Shown in pieces: positions 1-8,533 of a stretch of 64,000 nt of DNA (positions are counted from its first letter, which is position 1; each line of letters begins with the position of its first letter). Origin of the DNA: Lysobacter sp. S4-A87 (GTDB taxonomy: Bacteria; Pseudomonadota; Gammaproteobacteria; Xanthomonadales; Xanthomonadaceae); contig NZ_CP093341.1 in the NCBI RefSeq assembly GCF_022637455.1, forward strand, positions 1,426,001 through 1,490,000, written 5' to 3'. Under the pieces are notes generated by a model. It saw only the letters and a program-made list of their open reading frames with translations. It was not told the origin of the DNA and ran no database searches. A program made the position numbers and the translations under genes.

Positions 1-249
1 GGCGCGGTGAGCCTCGGCCCAAGTGGCCGCCCTGAACCCTCTGGGGCTGGAAAGGATCAAACAGGACTCAGACGGCTCGTAGCTGCACCTGCCATTGGCG
101 AGTGACGCCTCAAACAGATCGTCAGGGTTGTGGCAGACACGGGCGAGCAGCTTGTCCGGCTTCTTTTCCGCCTCATGCACGAAGCGATCGCGGAACTCCG
201 GCCTGACAAAGGCCGACGCGAATGCCTCCAAGGTTTCCTTGTCACCCAT
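1..249 (-). CDS. Cassette 15 hypothetical protein (partial, runs off left edge)
   Basis: The frame opens with ATG at 249-247, immediately after the attC of cassette 14, and stays open for 83 codons to the first base of the window. It starts MGDKETLEAFASAFVRPEF and has an acidic/basic, soluble composition with cysteines near residues 40, 56 and 64. The start lies a few bases inside the cassette boundary, as for its neighbours. I do not recognise the family. The product is incomplete here, so neither its length nor its C-terminus is known. Confidence 0.7.
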   Translation of the reverse strand, partial: MGDKETLEAFASAFVRPEFRDRFVHEAEKKPDKLLARVCHNPDDLFEASLANGRCSYEPSESCLILSSPRGFRAATWAEAHRA

Positions 250-253
250 AGCA

Positions 254-312
254 GCTAACGCCTGAGTTAAGCCGAGCCACGAAGTGGCTTCGGCTTGAAT
301 GAATTGTTAGGG
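254..312 (-). repeat. attC site of cassette 14
   Basis: Imperfect palindrome bounded by gCTAACg and GTTAGgg. Its central stem reads GCCAC-gaa-GTGGC where most sites have GCCGC-gaa-GCGGC, so both arms changed together. Confidence 0.92.
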
Positions 313-1044
313 CCCGTTCTTTGGCCGTCGGAGGTCACAGCGCGAAACATCATCAGCGCTTGCACTGGGAACAGAGTGAAGTGTCATGCAGTACTCGTAC
401 TCCACGATCTCCGGGACAGCGCCTTTTTCGCGAAGGGACGACACAGCAGCCTCAGCCTTTCGATAGTCACGGCGCACGAGCGCCGAAATATTGGCCGCCA
501 GAACTGCGTCCGACCCGTACTTGCGATCAATCAGCAGGGATGTGATCACATAGATTGCATCAAACTGATAGCGAGGACTGAGAGGTAGATTGTCGGAGAA
601 CTCTGGAATGAGTGCGCATTCTGCCGTGCTCCCCTTACCCTGGCAGTTCAGGCTCAATAGTTGTTCCGCGTCCTGATGTTTGCCAAGCACGTCCAAGGCG
701 ACGGCGCGCTGATAGTTTCGATACGCCTGCAGGTCTGGCCTTGGACTCTTGCCCACCTTCTCGTTGAACTGCAGAGATTTCCGGGCATCCGAAATATCGT
801 GATTGAGGTAGGCACGCGTCAAGTAGATGTCTGCCAGAATGGCGTTGGCAAGCAGTGCGTCGTCCGCATCATCCGACTCGGCCAGCCTAGACAAACTGGT
901 GAGCGCCTCGATATCGCTACCACCGTCATAGGCTCTCATTGCATTGCTATAGAGATCTTCCCGTCCAGGCGCCCCGCGCTGCGAGCACGCTATCAGCGAG
1001 CCTACAGCCAGCACCATTGCCAGCCGAATGATCGAAATCACCAA
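307..1044 (-). CDS. Cassette 14 putative lipoprotein, unknown function
   Basis: A 245-residue product with an N-terminal hydrophobic stretch followed by a lipobox, GSLIAC, which predicts export and lipidation. The mature part is mainly helical, with alanine- and leucine-rich segments around residues 30-150 reminiscent of short TPR/Sel1-type repeats (for example a region with ALDVLGKHQDAEQLL). The frame opens with TTG at 1044 or GTG at 1041; both lie 6-9 bases after a clear AGGGGAG ribosome binding site. The stop codon TAA is supplied by the attC at 307-309. No specific function can be assigned. Confidence 0.75.
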   Translation of the reverse strand: MVISIIRLAMVLAVGSLIACSQRGAPGREDLYSNAMRAYDGGSDIEALTSLSRLAESDDADDALLANAILADIYLTRAYLNHDISDARKSLQFNEKVGKSPRPDLQAYRNYQRAVALDVLGKHQDAEQLLSLNCQGKGSTAECALIPEFSDNLPLSPRYQFDAIYVITSLLIDRKYGSDAVLAANISALVRRDYRKAEAAVSSLREKGAVPEIVEYEYCMTLHSVPSASADDVSRCDLRRPKNGP

Positions 1045-1075
1045 GTCAGACTCCCCTGCATTGCGCCCGGTGTGG

Positions 1076-1135
1076 GCCTAACGCCTGAGTTAAGCCGAGC
1101 CGCGAAGCGGCTTCGGCTTGAACGAATTGTTAGGC
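1076..1135 (-). repeat. attC site of cassette 13
   Basis: 60 bp palindrome from gCCTAACg to GTTAGGC with the common GCCGC-gaa-GCGGC stem. One base differs in the outer spacer (aacgaattg rather than aatgaattg). Confidence 0.93.
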
Positions 1136-1141
1136 GCCGAC

Positions 1142-1585
1142 CTAGTCACGGCAAGCGCTGACATAAACACTGAACTGTAGTTGGCGATCAGGTAGGGAGG
1201 CGATCTGTAGGGGCTCGCCGAAATCCTGATAGGGCACGACGGCCTCCAGCCGCCCCTTCGGCGGAACCTGCAGCTTCCCACCGCAGCCACCCGGGCAATA
1301 GCGGGACATCAGTGAATTTCCGGCGCGGGAAAATGCGAGATCTCCGGACACTACGAACATCGGGTCACCGCTCGCCCGGCCTGTCGGCCATGCGCCTTCC
1401 GCCAGGCATAGCGCTCTTGAGTCTTGGGAAGAGAGCACGAGCTTGAAGCGCTGTTGGGCTGGCTCGTCTTGGATGTCCAGGCGGTACGAAGCGGGCGCTG
1501 TATCGCGTCCCGGTACGCTGCAGGCGGAGAGGCACGCTAAGGTCAGCGCGCCTATTGCGAACTTCACGGAGTTCAGAAGATGCAT
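1142..1585 (-). CDS. Cassette 13 putative lipoprotein, unknown function
   Basis: 147 residues with a signal segment (ALTLACLSAC) ending in a lipobox cysteine near residue 22, which predicts a lipid-anchored periplasmic or outer-membrane protein. The mature domain is rich in beta-type sequence and contains four further cysteines (RALCLAEG, SRYCPGGCGG and SACRD near the end), possibly forming disulfides. Start ATG at 1585 lies about 10 bases inside the cassette. The stop is just outside the attC. No known family recognised. Confidence 0.75.
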   Translation of the reverse strand: MHLLNSVKFAIGALTLACLSACSVPGRDTAPASYRLDIQDEPAQQRFKLVLSSQDSRALCLAEGAWPTGRASGDPMFVVSGDLAFSRAGNSLMSRYCPGGCGGKLQVPPKGRLEAVVPYQDFGEPLQIASLPDRQLQFSVYVSACRD

Positions 1586-1593
1586 GTTCCGAC

Positions 1594-1653
1594 GCCTAAC
1601 GCCAGAGTTAAGCCGCGCCGCGGAGCGGCGTCGGCTTGAATGACTTGTTAGGC
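1594..1653 (-). repeat. attC site of cassette 12
   Basis: 60 bp palindrome with GCCGC-gga-GCGGC stem and the outer-arm variant gccagag/atgacttg. Identical to the attC of cassette 5 at 4217-4276. Confidence 0.93.
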
Positions 1654-1900
1654 CTTAGCGCCCTAACCGGAGCCCAGAAACTGCGGCCGGCTGCAGTGCC
1701 ATGACCTAACCCCAGGCGGAAATGTATCAGCTCGCCGGGCCTGGCGCCGCCGGAGACGGGGGCCCGACCGAAGCGGGAGAAATGCCGCTGGCAATGACCG
1801 AGGATGGGGGCGTTGTGCGCACCACCGAAGCACATAGCCGGACGCGTACCCGCTGCCAGAGCATGTCGATTCCGGACCGGCCGCAACGCTGCGACTACAG
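1654..1900 (-). other. Cassette 12: gene-less cassette, copy A of a threefold-repeated cassette body
   Basis: 247 bp body almost identical to those at 4277-4523 and 4594-4840. The only long minus-strand frame begins with TTG and runs straight through the attC, and the few differences between copies all change amino acids in that frame. The opposite-strand 63-codon frame is also altered by the substitutions. I therefore see no sign of a conserved protein. A role as promoter, small RNA or filler cassette is possible but not shown. Confidence 0.7.
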
Positions 1901-1970
1901 GCCTAACGCCTGAGTTAAGCCGACACCAAGCGCGTAGCGATTGGTGTTCGGCTTGAATGACTTGTTAGGC
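1901..1970 (-). repeat. attC site of cassette 11 (70 bp variant)
   Basis: Longer palindrome whose inner stem is GACACCAA...TTGGTGTT around a gcgcgtagcga loop. It is base-for-base identical to the attC of cassette 4 at 4524-4593. Confidence 0.92.
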
Positions 1971-2182
1971 CTAGCGCCGTGACCGGAGCCGAGAACTGCA
2001 GCCGACCATGCCCTGGGCCTTCCCCGGACCGAAATGTAGCAGCTTGCGGCGGCCTGTGAACCAGGCCCCTCCCCTGCCCGAACGCGGAATGCAAGAGGAT
2101 CGACCGGGCCACCGAAGTCACGCGCGACGCGACAGAGTCCATGTGGCTCTACACCCTTACGGCTGCACAGCGGCGACAAGAG
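1971..2182 (-). other. Cassette 11: gene-less cassette, diverged relative of the repeated cassette
   Basis: 212 bp body that aligns with the repeated cassette at its attC-proximal end (shared cTAGCGCC..tgACCGGAGCC and gaAATGTAnCAGCT patterns) but has diverged elsewhere. No reading frame has a good start and stays within the cassette. It carries the same 70 bp attC as cassette 4. Confidence 0.6.
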
Positions 2183-2242
2183 GCCTAACGCCTGAGTTAA
2201 GCCGAGCCGCGAAGCGGCTTCGGCTTGAATGAATTGTTAGGG
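2183..2242 (-). repeat. attC site of cassette 10
   Basis: 60 bp palindrome from gCCTAACg to GTTAGGG with the common GCCGC-gaa-GCGGC stem. Confidence 0.93.
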
Positions 2243-2248
2243 GCGCGC

Positions 2249-2554
2249 CTAGTCACCGACAAACCAAATGTAGGTATGCGACCGGACGGCGCCCTCAAGC
2301 AGGTCCACGATAGCTTGAAGGTGTGTGTGGGCCCGTGCGTTGGAAACGGCAGGCAGCAGCTCACGCATCTCAGTTACCAGAAGCGGGCGCTGTAGCTGAT
2401 TGAAACAGGCATCTCCGGCGGGATCTATGAAGCGCAAGCAAGTGCTGCCGGATTGGCGATAGAACTGGTGGCTCAGATCGCTCAGCACACCGTTGTCCTC
2501 GACTGTGCCGAGGACCTCCCCGCGCTCATCTTTCCAGTAGACGTCAATCCCCAT
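2249..2554 (-). CDS. Cassette 10 hypothetical protein
   Basis: 101 residues, soluble, beginning MGIDVYWKDERGEVLGTV and ending in YIWFVGD. It has no signal peptide. Start ATG at 2554 sits five bases after AGGGG, where the ribosome binding site is formed by the end of the neighbouring attC (GTTAGGGG). Composition and size resemble small immunity-like or cytosolic adaptor proteins often found in cassettes, but no family can be named with confidence. Confidence 0.7.
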   Translation of the reverse strand: MGIDVYWKDERGEVLGTVEDNGVLSDLSHQFYRQSGSTCLRFIDPAGDACFNQLQRPLLVTEMRELLPAVSNARAHTHLQAIVDLLEGAVRSHTYIWFVGD

Positions 2555-2560
2555 TTGCGC

Positions 2561-2620
2561 CCCTAACGCCTGAATTAAGCCGAGCCGCGAAGCGGCTTCG
2601 GCTTGAATGAATTGTTAGCG
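2561..2620 (-). repeat. attC site of cassette 9
   Basis: 60 bp palindrome with the common stem; outer boxes CCCTAACg and GTTAGcg. Confidence 0.92.
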
Positions 2621-2914
2621 CCCATTGGTGCGGTTGACCATGAGCGCGTAAACGAAGGTCACTGGCCAGGCAAAGAAGCACGCCAGAAGCCAAAACCAAC
2701 TACCGGCAAGGTACGCACGACGCATTGCCACGGCCATGGCCCCGAAAACGGACAGCGGCACCGCCAAGCAAAAGGCTTTCTCGGCAAGGCTCATCTCGTC
2801 GCCGGAGAGTCCGCCGTCAGCCATGCGAGGTTGCCCAGAAATGAGCCATAGGTAGGCAGCCGCAGCGAGCAGAAGCAAAAGAGCCAGATAAGGGATCGCG
2901 TTATCTCTAGTCAT
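2615..2914 (-). CDS. Cassette 9 small membrane protein
   Basis: 99 residues with three hydrophobic segments (about residues 8-26, 48-64 and 70-90) separated by short polar loops, so probably an inner-membrane protein. Start ATG at 2914 is only a few bases inside the cassette. The stop TAA comes from the attC inverse core at 2615-2617. No family recognised. Confidence 0.72.
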   Translation of the reverse strand: MTRDNAIPYLALLLLLAAAAYLWLISGQPRMADGGLSGDEMSLAEKAFCLAVPLSVFGAMAVAMRRAYLAGSWFWLLACFFAWPVTFVYALMVNRTNGR

Positions 2915-2920
2915 GGGGGC

Positions 2921-2979
2921 GCTAACGCCTGAATTAAGCCGAGCCGCGAAGCGGCTTCGGCTTGAATGAACTGTTAGGC
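2921..2979 (-). repeat. attC site of cassette 8
   Basis: 59 bp palindrome with the common stem; outer boxes GCTAACg and GTTAGGC; inner spacer aatgaactg. Confidence 0.92.
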
Positions 2980-2985
2980 GCCACC

Positions 2986-3303
2986 CTACGGCCCGAAGCC
3001 AGCAGGAAGCAACTGGACGTCAGTTGCCATGCAAATGCCATTGCCGCCCGAAAGCGGACGTACGCCCAAGATGGTGCCGTGAGGTGCTGTCTCTGCCTGG
3101 ACGATCACGACAGGTTGTTCAGAGCCATCCTCAAGCGACTGCATAGCGCAGCAAGGCAATGTCATTGGAGCGGCGGCTGACTCGCCCGCGACGTAGAAGA
3201 CTGCAGAGCCTGCAACAACGTCAGCCTCAGTGGCCGGACGACCGACGACACATGGCGTGCTGCGCCAGTCACTTACCGAGATTGGACCCCAGAGATCGAC
3301 CAT
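2986..3303 (-). CDS. Cassette 8 hypothetical protein
   Basis: 105 residues starting MVDLWGPISVSDWRSTPC, with no export signal and mainly beta-strand character (alternating hydrophobic residues such as QPVVIVQAE and GTILGV). Start ATG at 3303 lies 13 bases inside the cassette and the stop is just before the attC. No family recognised. Confidence 0.68.
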   Translation of the reverse strand: MVDLWGPISVSDWRSTPCVVGRPATEADVVAGSAVFYVAGESAAAPMTLPCCAMQSLEDGSEQPVVIVQAETAPHGTILGVRPLSGGNGICMATDVQLLPAGFGP

Positions 3304-3315
3304 GTCCGATGTGGC

Positions 3316-3375
3316 GCCTAACGCCTGAATTAAGCCGAGCCGCGAAGCGGCTTCGGCTTGAATGAATTGTTAGGG
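3316..3375 (-). repeat. attC site of cassette 7
   Basis: 60 bp palindrome with the common GCCGC-gaa-GCGGC stem. The cassette 7 gene reads into it and stops at the TTAA in its left arm. Confidence 0.93.
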
Positions 3376-3788
3376 CGCAGACTACGGTAGTCCGCGACCG
3401 CAAGGTAAACGATTGCGCTGGCCGCAATGGCACAGGATGCCACTATCAGATAGTGATGCGGGCTGAGCCACGACAGCCCCCAGAGCGTGAAAAAGGCGAT
3501 TGCCAGCAGATAGGCCAGAGCTAGCCCGGCCACGGCCAGGAGAAGCCAGTGACGTGAGCTTGGCCCCATGCGGAGAGCTCGACCAAGTGAAGACAGCCCG
3601 ACAACCGCCACAAGCAGGGCGGCACCAACCACAGAAAGTTCTGCTGTTTCCGCCAGCGGGATGCCAATCGAGTCGGCATTGACGGGATAGACGCCGTTCC
3701 GCTGGTTCGTTGCGAGGACGGCTCTAACCGTGCCGTTAACCAACAGTAGCGATGCTGCAGACACCAACAGTTTGCTGATTAGCTTCAT
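3330..3788 (-). CDS. Cassette 7 membrane protein reading into its attC
   Basis: 152 residues with about four transmembrane segments (near residues 5-20, 42-62, 75-98 and 105-130). ATG at 3788 is the first start inside the cassette, six bases from the boundary; longer versions of the frame would cross into the next cassette. The last ~15 residues (RPNNSFKPKPLRGSA) are translated attC sequence, and the frame ends at the TAA within the attC arm. Function unknown. Confidence 0.7.
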   Translation of the reverse strand: MKLISKLLVSAASLLLVNGTVRAVLATNQRNGVYPVNADSIGIPLAETAELSVVGAALLVAVVGLSSLGRALRMGPSSRHWLLLAVAGLALAYLLAIAFFTLWGLSWLSPHHYLIVASCAIAASAIVYLAVADYRSLRPNNSFKPKPLRGSA

Positions 3789-3793
3789 CTGCG

Positions 3794-3853
3794 CCCTAAC
3801 GCCAGAGTTAAGCCGCGCCGCGGAGCGGCGTCGGCTTGAATGAATTGTTAGGC
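3794..3853 (-). repeat. attC site of cassette 6
   Basis: 60 bp palindrome with the GCCGC-gga-GCGGC stem; it differs from the cassette 5 and 12 sites mainly in aattg versus acttg near the right core. Confidence 0.92.
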
Positions 3854-4084
3854 CGCTGCTGCACGATGTGGCTGCATCGACCCTGGACGCCAACCAAGGA
3901 GGCGGGCAGGTAGGAAAAGAATAGCCTGCAGAAGTGCGAACAATGCAGAGAACGTAATGCCTACCAAGCGGAATGGAATGGTGAGCAGCCAGGCGATTGG
4001 CCAGAGAACCAAAGCCAGCAGGGCCAGCGGCCAGCAAAGAACAAACAAGATGCACCAAGCAACAACGGCTATTAGCGCCTTCAT
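3848..4084 (-). CDS. Cassette 6 small hydrophobic membrane protein
   Basis: 78 residues starting MKALIAVVAWCILF, with two or three long hydrophobic segments rich in Leu, Ala and Trp and a short basic tail. I chose the ATG at 4084 over an upstream start at 4195, because a strong AGGGAGA ribosome binding site precedes it by eight bases and the hydrophobic protein begins there. About 130 bp of the cassette lie upstream of the gene and could hold its own promoter. The stop comes from the attC. Function unknown. Confidence 0.75.
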   Translation of the reverse strand: MKALIAVVAWCILFVLCWPLALLALVLWPIAWLLTIPFRLVGITFSALFALLQAILFLPARLLGWRPGSMQPHRAAAA

Positions 4085-4216
4085 ATCTAGTCTCCCTGCG
4101 GCTCGGATCTGTGACGGAAGGGGGAACATTGCGACCCTATGGCGCTGTTGGCAACTGGCGAGCGACATACCGGCCCAAATCTCTGACGAAGCCACAAATA
4201 CGCCGACGAAAGCACG

Positions 4217-4276
4217 GCCTAACGCCAGAGTTAAGCCGCGCCGCGGAGCGGCGTCGGCTTGAATGACTTGTTAGGC
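4217..4276 (-). repeat. attC site of cassette 5
   Basis: 60 bp palindrome identical to the attC of cassette 12 (1594-1653). Confidence 0.93.
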
Positions 4277-4523
4277 CTTAGCGCCCTAACCGGAACCCAG
4301 AAACTGCGGCCGGCTGCAGTGCCATGACCTAACCCCAGGCGGAAATGTATCAGCTCGCCGGGCCTGGCGCCGCCGGAGACGGGGGCCCGACCGAAGCGGG
4401 AGAAATGCCGCTGGCAATGACCGAGGCTGGGGGCGTTGTGCGCACCACCGAAGCACATAGCCGGACGCGTACCCGCTGCCACAGCATGTCGATTCCGGAC
4501 CGGCCGCAACGCTGCGACTACAG
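4277..4523 (-). other. Cassette 5: gene-less cassette, copy B of the repeated body
   Basis: 247 bp body differing from copy A (1654-1900) at about three positions and from copy C (4594-4840) at about four. No convincing gene, for the reasons given for copy A. Together with both flanking attC sites it forms a 377 bp block matching 1594-1970. Confidence 0.7.
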
Positions 4524-4593
4524 GCCTAACGCCTGAGTTAAGCCGACACCAAGCGCGTAGCGATTGGTGTTCGGCTTGAATGACTTGTTAGGC
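4524..4593 (-). repeat. attC site of cassette 4 (70 bp variant)
   Basis: 70 bp palindrome identical to the attC of cassette 11 (1901-1970). Confidence 0.93.
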
Positions 4594-4840
4594 CTTAGCG
4601 CCCAAACCGGAGCCCAGAAGCTGCGGCCGGCTGCAGTGCCATGACCTAACCCCAGGCGGAAATGTATCAGCTCGCCGGGCCTGGCGCCGCCGGAGACGGG
4701 GGCCCGACCGAAGCGGGAGAAATGCCGCTGGCAATGACCGAGGCTGGGGGCGTTGTGCGCACCACCGAAGCACATAGCCGGACGCGTACCCGCTGCCACA
4801 GCATGTCGATTCCGGACCGGCCGCAACGCTGCGACTACAG
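4594..4840 (-). other. Cassette 4: gene-less cassette, copy C of the repeated body
   Basis: Third near-identical 247 bp body, adjacent to copy B but carrying the longer attC type. The only minus-strand frame starts with TTG and runs out through the attC. Confidence 0.7.
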
Positions 4841-4900
4841 GCCTAACGCCTGAATTAAGCCGACCCGCGAAGCGGGTTCGGCTTGAATGAATTGTTAGAG
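4841..4900 (-). repeat. attC site of cassette 3
   Basis: 60 bp palindrome whose inner stem is CCCGC-gaa-GCGGG, a paired change relative to the common type. Confidence 0.92.
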
Positions 4901-5176
4901 CTTGGCCCGAATTGCATCGGCGACCTCCCCAGCCCCCATGTTGCTTGCTGCTAGTAGAAGTTCCTGCCAGAACTCCGGCGGAGCACTACAAGCCTCGCCA
5001 AGGCCAACCAGGTAGTCAAGTGCCAAGCCAAGCTCATTGTGATGCAGATAGTCTTCTGCCTCAGACCAAGACTGGGCCGCCTCTGCGCTTGGCAAATCCT
5101 GGGGTAAGTAGAAACGGCTAGCTGCCAGGTGGCGCAGTGACGTCGCCCAGGAAGCTCTCAACTCAGGACTCGACAT
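4895..5176 (-). CDS. Cassette 3 small helical protein, possibly immunity-like
   Basis: 93 residues from ATG at 5176 (a TTG four codons upstream is the only alternative). The sequence is acidic and helical, with a segment HHNELGLALDYLVGLGEA followed by a PPEFWQELLLAA helix. That arrangement recalls short immunity-type proteins (MafI-like), but the match is from memory and weak. No signal peptide. The stop TAA comes from the attC at 4895-4897. Confidence 0.68.
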   Translation of the reverse strand: MSSPELRASWATSLRHLAASRFYLPQDLPSAEAAQSWSEAEDYLHHNELGLALDYLVGLGEACSAPPEFWQELLLAASNMGAGEVADAIRAKL

Positions 5177-5190
5177 TGATTGCGGCAAGC

Positions 5191-5249
5191 TCTAACGCCT
5201 GAGTTAAGCCGCACCGCGGAGCGGTGTCGGCTTGAATGAATTGTTAGGC
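5191..5249 (-). repeat. attC site of cassette 2
   Basis: 59 bp palindrome with inner stem ACCGC-gga-GCGGT, again a paired change. Confidence 0.92.
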
Positions 5250-5750
5250 ATCAGCCCGGCGACCTCTGCTTGGCTTCCAGAGCGGGCGTGGCTCATAGGC
5301 GACGTAGCCCGTGCCATCGTCATAGCCAAGGACCTTGTGACCGAAACACTCAATGAAAGCCACGAGACACGATATGCCGCCATATGGATAGGCGCCTGGT
5401 TCGAACGTGAGAACGTGCCGGCCGCACCTCTCGGTGAGGCCGCCAAGCTCGTACTCACCATTCCAAATTGCCTCATACATGGATGGAAGATCCCACTGTG
5501 GACACACCATCGTGGGAGAGAGTCGAACGGCTACAGGAGTGCAATTCCAGTGAGCGTTCCATTCATCCCATTCATCAGGCGAGAACTGCGAAAAGTATGC
5601 CTGCTCTTGCGGGTTCAATAGCGCGGTCAATCTCACCTCATCGACTTCCAACTCGCTGGACTTCATAGCCCTGATGAGCGAGAGCATCTCTCCGGTTCGA
5701 AGAAGCTGCTCGGCGCCGGCTGGCGCGAATTCGATGTAACAGGACTCCAC
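5244..5750 (-). CDS. Cassette 2 hypothetical protein
   Basis: 168 residues starting with GTG at 5750, which follows AGGGG by seven bases. The protein is soluble, acidic and tryptophan-rich (DEWDEWNAHWNC, CPQWDLPSMYEAIWNGEYEL). It ends with a GYDDGTGYVAYEP segment and a basic tail. It has no signal peptide and I recognise no family. The stop codon is supplied by the attC. Confidence 0.72.
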   Translation of the reverse strand: MESCYIEFAPAGAEQLLRTGEMLSLIRAMKSSELEVDEVRLTALLNPQEQAYFSQFSPDEWDEWNAHWNCTPVAVRLSPTMVCPQWDLPSMYEAIWNGEYELGGLTERCGRHVLTFEPGAYPYGGISCLVAFIECFGHKVLGYDDGTGYVAYEPRPLWKPSRGRRADA

Positions 5751-5765
5751 AGCGTTTCCCCTGAT

Positions 5766-5825
5766 GCCTAACGCCTGAATTAAGCCGAGCCGCGAAGCGG
5801 CTTCGGCTTGAATGAATTGTTAGGT
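5766..5825 (-). repeat. attC site of cassette 1
   Basis: 60 bp palindrome with the common GCCGC-gaa-GCGGC stem; right core GTTAGGT. Confidence 0.93.
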
Positions 5826-6134
5826 GCGCAGGCGGCGGCGCACGAATGCCGCGACTGCCACCAGCGAGCCAACGAGAGCAACCAAAGCTGAGTTGTAGAA
5901 CACAAAAGCGAGAGCCTTGAATCCGCCATCTTTGTGCCACGCGTTAAGCGCCACTGCCGGATCATGCTTCAGATAGCGATCTGCAATTAAGCAGAAGGCG
6001 ACCGTGGATACAACGACCCAAGCGGCAACCGCACCGTGCCAGAGGCGGCGACTCCTGGTCGTGGGAAGGAGACGGCCAGCCAACCTCACTACAGCCAACG
6101 CTAGGAACGGTAGGAGGAGAACTAGCAGACCCAT
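5820..6134 (-). CDS. Cassette 1 membrane protein (attI-proximal)
   Basis: 104 residues with about three hydrophobic segments (residues 2-18, 32-50 and 72-95) and positively charged loops, so probably an inner-membrane protein. As the first cassette it should be the best expressed from an integron promoter in attI. ATG at 6134 lies seven bases after the AGG of the attI core GTTAGGT, which may serve as ribosome binding site. The stop is in its attC. Function unknown. Confidence 0.75.
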   Translation of the reverse strand: MGLLVLLLPFLALAVVRLAGRLLPTTRSRRLWHGAVAAWVVVSTVAFCLIADRYLKHDPAVALNAWHKDGGFKALAFVFYNSALVALVGSLVAVAAFVRRRLRT

Positions 6135-6140
6135 TTCTGC

Positions 6141-6283
6141 ACCTAACTATCTAATCGAGGACAGATTGGGGCGTAATCCCGGTGCGTATCTGTCGTGGTT
6201 AATGGTTGAACTTCAGGAATTCCCCACCCAAACAACCGCTTGTCGCCAATGTAGGCGTGTAACCCCGGTGCCTAACCTGTCGT
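6141..6283 (-). other. attI region
   Basis: The junction core GTTAGGT (minus strand, 6141-6147) marks where the first cassette meets intI-side DNA; no attC-like palindrome surrounds it, as expected for attI. Two imperfect direct repeats of about 24 bp (6173-6196 and 6259-6283, sharing CCCGGTGC and TGTCGT) lie between it and intI. They could be integrase-binding repeats like those known in attI1. The second repeat contains its own GTTAGGC on the minus strand (6270-6276). Confidence 0.7.
6148..6176 (-). promoter_or_regulatory. Candidate cassette promoter Pc
   Basis: On the minus strand TTACGC and TAGATA are separated by 17 bases, just upstream of the attI junction and reading into cassette 1. 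The -35 box is a poor match, so this is a weak positional guess. Confidence 0.25.
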
Positions 6284-6310
6284 TCCGCCAGTTCTGTTCA
6301 GGATGCCCCG

Positions 6311-7333
6311 ATGCGACGCTATCACCGGCCTGCGAACGGGACAAGCGAAGCCACGTTGGGCGTCGGCGCGCCTGCCGGACCGCCGCGATTGCTAGATCGG
6401 GTTCGCGAGCGCGCTCGCCGCCTGGGCATGGCCAAGCGCACCGAGGAGGCCTACGTTGGCTGGGTGCGGCGGTACATCCTCGCCCATGGCAAGCGCCATC
6501 CGGACCAGATGGGTGCCAGGGAGGTCGAGCAGTTCCTCACCCTGCTGGCGGTGCGCGACAACGTGGCGCCCTCGACCCAGAACCAGGCTTTGGCGGCGCT
6601 GCTCTTCCTCTATCGCGAAGTGCTGGGGCAGTCGCTCCCCTGGATGGATGAGGTCCGTCGCGCGAAGAAGCCGCAACGGCTCCCGGTGGTGCTGTCTCGC
6701 TCCGAAGTGGCGGCCTTGCTCGGCGAAATGTCGGGCGTGCACGGTTTGATGGCATCGCTGCTCTACGGCAGCGGGCTCAGGCTCATGGAGTGCATCCGAC
6801 TACGGGTCAAGGACGTCGACCTTGAGCGGCACGAACTGCTGGTGCGCCAGGGCAAGGGCGGAAAGGACCGGCGCACCATGCTGCCCCAGGCATTGGGGGC
6901 TCGCCTGCGCGTGCAGATCGACGAAGCGCGCACCCTGCACCAGCGCGACCTGGCGGCAGGTTTCGGCCAGGTCTGGATGCCCGACGCACTGGCGCGCAAG
7001 TTCCCCAACGCTGCACGGGAGTTCGGTTGGCAGTACATCTTTCCGGCGAAGACACGCAGCGTGGATCCCCGCTCGGGTGTGTTGCGCCGGCATCACCGCG
7101 ACGAGAAGGGCCTGCAGCGCGCGGTCCGGGCGGCGTCACTTCGGGCCGGCACGGTCAAGCCAGCCACTTGCCACGCACTGCGCCACTCCTTCGCGACGCA
7201 CCTGCTGGAGGCCGGGTACGACTTGCGCACCATCCAGGAACTGCTGGGGCACTCCGATGTACGCACCACCCAGATCTATACCCATGTGCTGAACCGCGGC
7301 GGCCGCGGCGTGCTGAGCCCGTTGGATCGCTGA
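6311..7333 (+). CDS. intI: Integron integrase IntI
   Basis: 340-residue tyrosine recombinase that inserts and excises cassettes at attI and attC. All six catalytic positions are visible: Arg157 (GSGLRLME), a lysine near 182 (GKGGKD), His288 and Arg291 ([12 protein letters not shown]), His314 (LGHSDVRTT) and Tyr323 ([11 protein letters not shown]). The extra region that distinguishes IntI from XerC/D is present around residues 213-262 (from DLAAGFG to LRRHH). Start ATG at 6311 follows CAGGA by seven bases. No frameshift or stop is seen, so the integron is likely still active. Confidence 0.95.
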
Positions 7334-7465
7334 AACCTGCGCGGCCTGCGCGCCTGCCGGATCCAACGCGCTCGCCTTCATCCACTCGCTGCGCGACGGC
7401 GCCTACAGTAGCGCCACGCCATGGCCCTCCGGCCCAGGCGTCCTTTACCGCAATGGAGTGATGCC

Positions 7466-8533
7466 ATGTGGCATGACAACGCTTTCGCCCGGCGCCTGGG
7501 TCTGCAGTATCCGATCGTGCAGGGGCCGTTCGGCGGCGGGCTGTCTTCGATCGATCTGCTGGTGGCGGTTTCCGAGGCGGGCGGTCTGGGCTCGTTCGGT
7601 GCGCATCACCTCGCGCCGGAAAAGCTCGATGAACTCACCCGGCAGATCCGCGCCCGCACGCAACGACCCTTTGCACTGAACCTGTGGGTGTCGAACCAGG
7701 ATCCCGGCGGCGACCGGCTCACGGCGGAGCAGTTCGCAGCCGCCATCGAACGCTTCCGCCCCTATTACGATGCGCTCGGCATGACCCCGCCGCCGATGCC
7801 CGAGCGCTATGGACAGCGCTTCGATGACCAGGTGCAGGCCATGCTCGATGCACGGCCGCCGGTGATGAGTTTCGTGTTCGGGATTCCGTCCGCTGCCATC
7901 CTCTCGGAATGCCGACGTCGCGAGATCGCCACCATGGGCACCGTTACCACGATCGACGAAGCGATCGCGATGGATCAGGCCGGCGTGGATGTCATCGTCG
8001 CCACCGGCTTCGAAGCCGGTGGACACCGCGTGTCGTTCCTGCGCCCGGCCGAGGAGTCGTTGACGGGCACGCTCGCGCTGATTCCGCAGGTGGTCGATCG
8101 CGTGTCGACGCCGGTGATTGCGGCGGGCGGCATCGCCGACGGGCGTGGCGTTGCTGCGGCGCTGACGCTCGGTGCGCAGGGCGTGCAGATCGGCACGGCG
8201 TTCCTGGCGTGCGAGGAGTCCGGCACGAACGCGCTGCACCGCGAGATGCTGTTCAGCGATGACGCGAAGTACACGGCGCTCACGCGCGCATTCAGCGGGC
8301 GCCTCGCGCGCGGCATCCGCAATCGCTTCGTCGAAGAGTGGGAAGGAAGTTCACCGTTGCCCTACCCGATCCAGAACTGGTTCACCGGGACGTTCAAGGC
8401 GACGGCGGCGGCGCAGGGTCGCGGCGACATGATTTCGCTTTGGGCGGGACAGGGCGCGCCGCTGTTGAAGCATCGACGCGCGCGCGAGCTGTTCGATGCG
8501 CTGGTCGCTCAGACGGGGGCGTTGTTGCGTTGA
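7466..8533 (+). CDS. Nitronate monooxygenase (NPD family)
   Basis: 355-residue FMN-dependent TIM-barrel enzyme that oxidises alkyl nitronates. The N-terminal IVQGPFGGG, the EAGGHR segment (His187, the usual catalytic base) and the phosphate-binding AAGGIADGRG...GAQGVQIGTAF stretch are characteristic. ATG at 7466 was chosen because GGAG lies eight bases upstream and the conserved N-terminus begins there. It stands alone downstream of intI and is probably not part of the integron. Confidence 0.9.
   Translation: MWHDNAFARRLGLQYPIVQGPFGGGLSSIDLLVAVSEAGGLGSFGAHHLAPEKLDELTRQIRARTQRPFALNLWVSNQDPGGDRLTAEQFAAAIERFRPYYDALGMTPPPMPERYGQRFDDQVQAMLDARPPVMSFVFGIPSAAILSECRRREIATMGTVTTIDEAIAMDQAGVDVIVATGFEAGGHRVSFLRPAEESLTGTLALIPQVVDRVSTPVIAAGGIADGRGVAAALTLGAQGVQIGTAFLACEESGTNALHREMLFSDDAKYTALTRAFSGRLARGIRNRFVEEWEGSSPLPYPIQNWFTGTFKATAAAQGRGDMISLWAGQGAPLLKHRRARELFDALVAQTGALLR

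Follow-up and report, generated by a model that had tools for sequence, protein, structure and literature searches.

An apparently intact chromosomal integron of Lysobacter sp. S4-A87 carrying repeated cassettes that appear to lack a gene

The integron and its integrase

We analyzed a 64,000-nucleotide (nt) stretch of the genome of Lysobacter sp. S4-A87 (contig NZ_CP093341.1, positions 1,426,001 to 1,490,000 of the forward strand; hereafter the window, whose numbering is used below), which begins with an integron made up of an array of gene cassettes with their attC recombination sites, an attI region and the integrase gene intI. The integron sits between cstA and a nitronate monooxygenase (NMO) gene, which is followed by the genes of an S9 peptidase and an OPT transporter. 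The substrate of IntI is the folded bottom strand of attC, which it recombines with attI or with a second attC; circular cassettes thereby go in beside attI, and other cassettes are excised or copied. Our analysis identifies the element, very probably, as an ordinary sedentary chromosomal integron of the Xanthomonadales kind, and its most interesting feature is an amplified cassette that appears to be gene-less.

The intI product scores 474.9 bits against the curated NCBIfam model TIGR02249, "integron integrase" (cut-off 265). Its top solved-structure match is the integrase IntI4 (PDB 2a3v), which aligns across IntI residues 29-340 with one one-residue gap and is the only one of 14 structure matches to carry an integron-integrase name. 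Both the catalytic motifs, to which we assign the set R, K, H-R, H and Y, and the integron-type insert align with 2a3v, in agreement with a preliminary description of this DNA that had reported an intact integrase with its catalytic residues and insert. The ATG at 6311 is aligned in 12 of 12 sequences (our own and 11 relatives), and pairwise ratios of nonsynonymous to synonymous substitution (dN/dS) against six relatives are 0.16-0.22 (dS 0.86-1.26, dN 0.19-0.22), indicating that intI is under purifying selection in this comparison. Guanine-plus-cytosine (GC) content amounts to 0.680 in intI, 0.598 in the window's array part and 0.676 from 8634 onward.

Among the IntI relatives listed by name, which are mostly distant integrases, are sequences from Luteimonas and Lysobacter. 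At E<=1e-80, an IntI match was found in 232 of 395 sampled genomes of the family, in 45 of 54 genera, and one of the matches listed has an internal stop; this threshold favours intact genes, so that the figures are no measure of the rate of intI decay. An intact integrase is therefore common and nothing special in this family, and the preliminary description, which had set the intact intI against damaged relatives, holds for one side of that contrast: the available parts of two studies report intI damage in several Xanthomonas species (PMC12444791) and as a trend in Xanthomonadales (PMC3108266). The latter also reports that LexA control of intI has been lost in Xanthomonadaceae.

The attC array and cassette structure

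All 14 attC sites inside the window share a single orientation and point away from intI. The window cuts the array: 12 further attC lie in the 4.9 kb upstream, giving 26 in total and reaching G000:C1:1421128. A strict attC pattern matched 17 times on the forward and never on the reverse strand of the whole 3.89 Mb genome, nor did it match when run backwards as a control, while a loose half-site pattern (at most two mismatches) had 27 matches genome-wide, 26 of them inside the array. Aligned as hairpins, the 26 sites (of which 25 are distinct) have 99.1% of their cells paired, and both sides change in 5 of the 14 pairs, values reached by 0 of 500 shuffles; the best slid version pairs 52.1% of cells. 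The well-formed sites counted in the preliminary description are thereby borne out. The attC covariance model used below was trained on these 26 sites, and its scores on them are not independent evidence. Sites of the Xanthomonadales type have been reported from Xanthomonas, Lysobacter, Luteimonas and others (PMC8352920, as excerpted), and ours are likened to them by resemblance. One attC (L007 18820-18882) shows a compensatory stem change (CCG->GGG with CGG->CCC), and decayed attC-like sites were seen by eye beyond the distal end of the array.

At its start, each cassette agrees with the reverse complement of its own R'' over 8.3 nt on average; the mean is 5.4 nt when the next cassette is taken instead and 4.95 nt in permutations, none of which (0 of 20,000) was as high. 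Leaving out three duplicate copies gave 8.3 versus 4.8 nt and again 0 of 20,000. The script placed the start of C1 three bases off, and C26 is degenerate; each therefore scored 1, which biases the test against the result. Because the ends complement their own R'' and not that of the neighbour, the cassettes are circle-derived units. The putative attI region contains blocks conserved across our sequence and 11 relatives, and the boundary of the cassette reads CCTAAC in 8 of the 12.

A repeated cassette that appears to lack a gene

The bodies of C4, C5, C12 and C19 (the last outside the window) are 98-99% identical, and C11 is a divergent fifth form. Two distinct attC hairpins occur on the shared body, a long one on C4 and C19 (L007 18503-18575) and a short one on C5 and C12, a pattern that suggests hairpin exchange or homologous recombination between cassettes. 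The preliminary description had recognized recent duplicates here, correctly, and had taken them as a sign of ongoing cassette movement; for that purpose they are a weak sign, since they belong to a gene-less family of the kind that is amplified in other arrays.

Between C4 and C11, four of five insertions or deletions (indels) are not a multiple of three and the substitutions are spread evenly over the three codon phases (33/34/28). All four coding controls were phase-biased (8/5/23, 25/7/6, 17/6/8 and 13/39/10), three of them without indels and the fourth with a single frame-breaking one. The four near-identical copies show a phase of 9/3/12 and no indels, which is uninformative on coding, and because such copies alone cannot settle the matter, the non-coding verdict rests on C4 versus C11. 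On this comparison, the family appears to hold no protein-coding gene. A block of about 90 nt near attC is kept among the divergent forms, while the middle of the body is unalignable; the family has a GC content of 0.67.

We also considered a structured RNA and rejected it: the body folds no better than shuffles, Rfam at its gathering cut-off found nothing for this family in the whole window and six relatives' loci, and a relaxed cut-off over 1590-4900 gave two chance-level matches only. Outside our family, the small RNA (sRNA) sX15 of Rfam matched at 122 bits within the integron region of a relative (L047 5912-6072). Homologues of the gene-less body were not found in the 395 family genomes by a weak search limited to two candidates from each genome, which overlooked C19 and C11 of our own array, nor by one exact pattern in genome-contig and viral-contig collections, nor in plasmids. 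A motif common to our family and that of arrays L054 and L055 seemed real by eye and was dropped at E values of 5.5, 7.1 and 0.5.

Repeated cassettes in related arrays

The survey of repeated cassettes covered 60 further loci and our own, in two sets. The first comprised 20 loci together with our array and contained 318 cassettes that had both ends; the second comprised 40 loci, 34 of which had at least three cassettes (582 cassettes). In the first set, array-specific families of at least three copies occurred in L052 (11 copies), L053 (5, later 6), L054 (6), L055 (6), our own array (4) and L059 (3). Frame-breaking indels made up 30 of 30 in L052, 97 of 97 in L053, 13 of 13 in L059 and 498 of 557 in L054 and L055, which were tested pooled with L043 and L047. 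Substitution phase was flat except in L052 (412/241/270), where the frames carry stops in nearly every copy.

For the second set, a prediction was written after the loci had been fetched and before they were analyzed. Families of at least three copies were found in L177 (12), L168 (8), L181 (7), L191 (7), L154 (4), L178 (3) and L184 (3), and all seven look non-coding by indels and phase; the weakest cases are L178 (two indels, both frame-breaking) and L184 (four of eight indels not a multiple of three). The length of the open reading frame (ORF), predicted alongside as a second test for gene-less cassettes, failed, and only the indel and phase test held: in three of the families judged non-coding, every member (8 of 8, 3 of 3 and 3 of 3) passed an 80% ORF criterion, because random frames stay open in high-GC DNA.

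Altogether, 13 of 13 array-specific families with at least three copies look non-coding. They reduce to about nine unrelated groups, as L054, L055 and L154, then L053 and L059, and finally L181 and L191 each form one group. Two-copy families are mixed, some with clear coding phase. No fold signal was found in the 11 family members tested (z -1.6 to +1.9). These results suggest a testable rule, that cassettes present in three or more copies in the arrays of this family lack a gene. The L052 and L177 arrays hold 11 and 12 copies, respectively, of a single gene-less cassette.

Possible roles of the gene-less cassettes

Repeated "empty" cassettes are already known from Xanthomonas, and ours is not the first report: the accessible part of a survey of that genus describes an "empty" cassette, sometimes several per array, that may be a promoter (PMC12444791). 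In Vibrio, promoters of gene-less cassettes were measured and proved unpredictable in silico, according to the excerpted text of PMC11014356. In our array, the block common to the C4-type copies, C11 and the sister-species relic described below contains CTGNTACATT, in which an extended -10 motif faces the next cassette and the sole variable base is the N of that motif (A, C or G, depending on the form). C11 has an extended -10 promoter-like site at 2060-2033 (-), TTCACA-16-TACATT, whose second hexamer is preceded by TG. Across the survey, the gene-less families had a sense-strand sigma-70 mean z of 0.55 versus -0.32 for 50 other cassettes; they were higher on the antisense strand too (-0.07 versus -0.63), which makes this a rough test, and four of the 13 families account for the sense excess. 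We give just under even chances to the idea that the repeated gene-less cassettes are promoter cassettes from which transcription starts anew inside the array, a rating held at that level because some families depend on one another and because the score is crude. If so, C4, C5, C12 and C19, together with the divergent C11, would restart transcription toward the cassettes that follow them, and this would explain the expression of distal cassettes in long arrays, an open question in integron biology. Several observations weigh against a gene-less promoter cassette. The sigma-70 score of our own family, a crude one, is not above shuffles (mean z -0.22 sense, 0.68 antisense), the C4-type copies have no good -35, a promoter scan of 1-6400 gave 3 sites versus 1.7 expected by shuffling, and one forward frame, broken in C11, is open throughout the four near-identical copies.

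The lack of sense-strand promoter enrichment in our own family would also fit gene-less repeats that have no function, recombination copying cassettes freely and gene-less copies simply not being selected against. This is a real possibility, if a somewhat improbable one: all 13 families, in some nine unrelated groups, look non-coding and the members tested show no fold signal, whereas old copies persist (within-family identity 72-100%), the block near attC is retained between divergent forms of our family, and the sense sigma-70 score of the gene-less set exceeds that of other cassettes, on the same rough test. The gene-less cassettes could alternatively encode an sRNA or, on the antisense strand, a short peptide, since the retained block read on that strand begins ATG-TA(N)-CAG-CT and the available part of PMC12444791 describes sRNA-Xcc1 as an integron-borne sRNA in Xanthomonas. 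We consider this quite improbable, as the Rfam and folding results given above offer nothing for an sRNA, and the antisense frame of C11 has a stop at its second codon, with the remainder not conserved by eye. Extending the promoter interpretation to the other arrays, the integron lineages of this family may independently have produced gene-less cassettes of their own, unrelated in sequence, and multiplied them as promoters inside the array, a scenario that we regard as conceivable yet doubtful. Were it true, selection for copy number would act on the gene-less type of cassette alone, and a large array would consist of separately transcribed blocks instead of being silenced by distance from the first promoter.

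The Vibrio superintegrons share with our locus gene-less cassettes in a chromosomal array and a proposed restart of transcription; promoter activity was measured there and is predicted from sequence here, and ours is a single family of 4+1 copies with the GC content noted (PMC11014356, as excerpted). The Xanthomonas integrons are alike in their integrase, mostly unknown cargo and repeatable "empty" cassette, and differ in that they lie downstream of ilvD with few exceptions, whereas ours is flanked by CstA on one side and by NMO, peptidase S9 and OPT on the other, and in that their intI is often broken in several species, whereas ours is intact (PMC12444791, in its available part). Cassettes with sRNA-Xcc1 are likewise non-coding in content (PMC12444791 and PMC2996969, both as excerpted), and are set apart from ours by the lack of an Rfam match and of a fold signal in our family.

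History and activity of the integron

The gene cstA is present in 12 of 12 genus genomes, and NMO in 2 of 12 at E<=1e-80, our own and that of a sister species (G001). In the 10 congeners without NMO, the gap between cstA and the S9 peptidase gene is 0.4-10.5 kb, and neither intI (tblastn, E<=1e-3) nor attC (cmsearch, E<=0.1) was found in the stretches fetched. IntI itself is patchy in the genus, with a match at E<=1e-60 in 2 of 12 genomes; that of G005 is 64% identical to ours and lies on a different contig from the cstA locus of that genome.

The sister species has the flanks of our integron, 95.5% (2,312 nt) and 93.7% (5,439 nt) identical, and the NMO gene, and it lacks intI. It retains five attC of 75 to 38 bits; a sixth, on the opposite strand, scores 15.3 bits and is no better than chance. 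Of our 26 cassettes, two have left traces there, C6 at about 75% identity and C11 as a 90-nt piece of 84% identity, the latter directly adjoining the NMO gene at the place expected for intI; stretches at the distal end also match, at 79-87%. The simplest history would be that the integron was present before the two species split and that the sister lost intI and most of the array; our species would have kept the integron and turned its cassettes over after the split. A separate gain in each lineage would be less simple. The integron adds a documented case of integron fate in sister species, kept at a site in one and decayed at the same site in the other. On the distal side of the decayed array, the sister (L062 10303-13395) has an ORF of 1,030 amino acids with subtilase and autotransporter domains.

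Our integron is intact and probably functional, and we infer that recombination may be continuing today. The dN/dS of intI, for its part, reflects long-term selection only. An intI that is open but unused, in a frozen relic with an array inherited unchanged, would accord with the many inactive integrons of Xanthomonas (PMC12444791 and PMC3108266, in their available parts) and with the decayed attC-like sites seen by eye at the distal end. Such a relic is nevertheless unlikely, given that our 26 attC are near-perfect against 38-75 bits in the sister (a difference that is partly an effect of a model built from our own sites), that the array is almost wholly unlike that of the sister, and that intI has been under purifying selection relative to six relatives. 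The preliminary description had named identical arrays in all relatives over long divergence as one finding that would refute activity; the array is not shared with the sister.

The NMO gene beside intI (7421-8533) may have come with the integron, a possibility raised because NMO is confined to our genome and the sister among the 12. No NMO gene was found beside intI in 30 loci (L009-L038) or in four named loci, where the flank is limited, to about 1.5 kb in many.

Cassette cargo and the stop codon of attC

The features of the integron are given in Table 1. The cargo scan covered 21 cassette ORFs, ten in the window and eleven outside or across its edge. Pfam recognized TPR in one of them (best 2.5e-06), all remaining matches being 0.0015 or weaker, and the NCBIfam models gave a MafI-like immunity match for C3, at 22.8 bits where 31 are required, and TPR matches for C26 that likewise stayed below threshold; neither PADLOC (E<=1) nor PHROGs (E<=0.01) yielded a match. 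The cargo therefore appears largely unknown, as the preliminary description had judged from the letters, and this now stands after profile searches. In a cross-locus search, for which the C1 query was an approximate 330-nt stretch only, 20 of the 26 cassettes had no match among the 60 other loci and 11 congener loci. The matched ones are C6 and C11 (sister), C21 (shared at 89.6% nt identity with the G005 integron, which sits elsewhere in that genome) and, distantly by translated search, C17, C22 and C23. C3 is possibly an orphan immunity gene.

Table 1. Coordinates of the integron features in the window
Feature	Position	Strand	Description	Basis
intI	6311..7333	+	integron tyrosine recombinase, 340 amino acids, intact	ORF, TIGR02249, 2a3v alignment
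attI region	6146..6300	-	between first cassette and intI; insertion core ~6146; intI-proximal limit approximate	12-sequence alignment
C1 ORF	5820..6134	-	104 amino acids, hydrophobic, no significant family; stop is TAA of R''	
attC of C1	5764..5826	-		half-site pattern, hairpin
C2 ORF	5244..5750	-	168 amino acids, no family	
attC of C2	5188..5250	-		half-site pattern, hairpin
C3 ORF	4895..5188	-	~93-97 amino acids, MafI-like immunity protein (sub-cut-off)	
attC of C3	4839..4901	-		half-site pattern, hairpin
C4	4530..4846	-	predicted gene-less cassette	
attC of C4	4522..4594	-	long hairpin form	
C5	4223..4529	-	predicted gene-less; C4 body with other attC hairpin	
attC of C5	4215..4277	-	short hairpin form	
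C6	3800..4222	-	membrane-type ORF ending 3848; sister relic ~75% identity	
attC of C6	3792..3854	-		half-site pattern, hairpin
C7 ORF	3330..3788	-	152 amino acids, membrane-type; final residues and stop supplied by attC	
attC of C7	3314..3376	-		half-site pattern, hairpin
C8 ORF	2986..3303	-	105 amino acids, no family recognized	
attC of C8	2918..2980	-		half-site pattern, hairpin
C9 ORF	2615..2914	-	99 amino acids, membrane-type; stop is TAA of R''	
attC of C9	2559..2621	-		half-site pattern, hairpin
C10 ORF	2249..2554	-	101 amino acids, no family recognized	
attC of C10	2181..2243	-		half-site pattern, hairpin
C11	1907..2188	-	divergent, predicted gene-less cassette	
attC of C11	1899..1971	-	long hairpin form	
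C12	1600..1906	-	predicted gene-less cassette	
attC of C12	1592..1654	-	short hairpin form	
C13 ORF	1142..1585	-	147 amino acids, lipoprotein-like signal (by eye)	
attC of C13	1074..1136	-		half-site pattern, hairpin
C14 ORF	307..1044	-	245 amino acids, lipoprotein-like signal (by eye)	
attC of C14	251..313	-		half-site pattern, hairpin
C15 (part)	1..258	-	cut by window start, continues to G000:C1:1425842	
C16-C26	outside window			

We also recorded where the cassette ORFs end, in window 1-6146 and in loci L042-L061 and L153-L192. For the first set we required an ORF spanning 80% or more of the body, removed 46 gene-less cassettes beforehand and skipped bodies under 150 nt. Of the 227 cassette ORFs that were left, 106 have the TAA of R'' as their exact stop, 40 stop within attC and 78 earlier, while 3 read through. 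In the second set, with gene-less cassettes kept in, the figures are 238 at the R'' TAA (238 of 499), 81 inside attC, 29 reading through and 151 earlier, with 81 cassettes having no ORF of the required coverage. A limited literature search met no published count of stops at the R'' TAA. Roughly half of the well-covered cassette ORFs thus terminate at the R'' TAA of attC, so that in these arrays one site serves both recombination and the end of translation. In another fraction of ORFs, attC adds a short C-terminal tail, for example NNSFKPKPLRGSA, followed by a second TAA.

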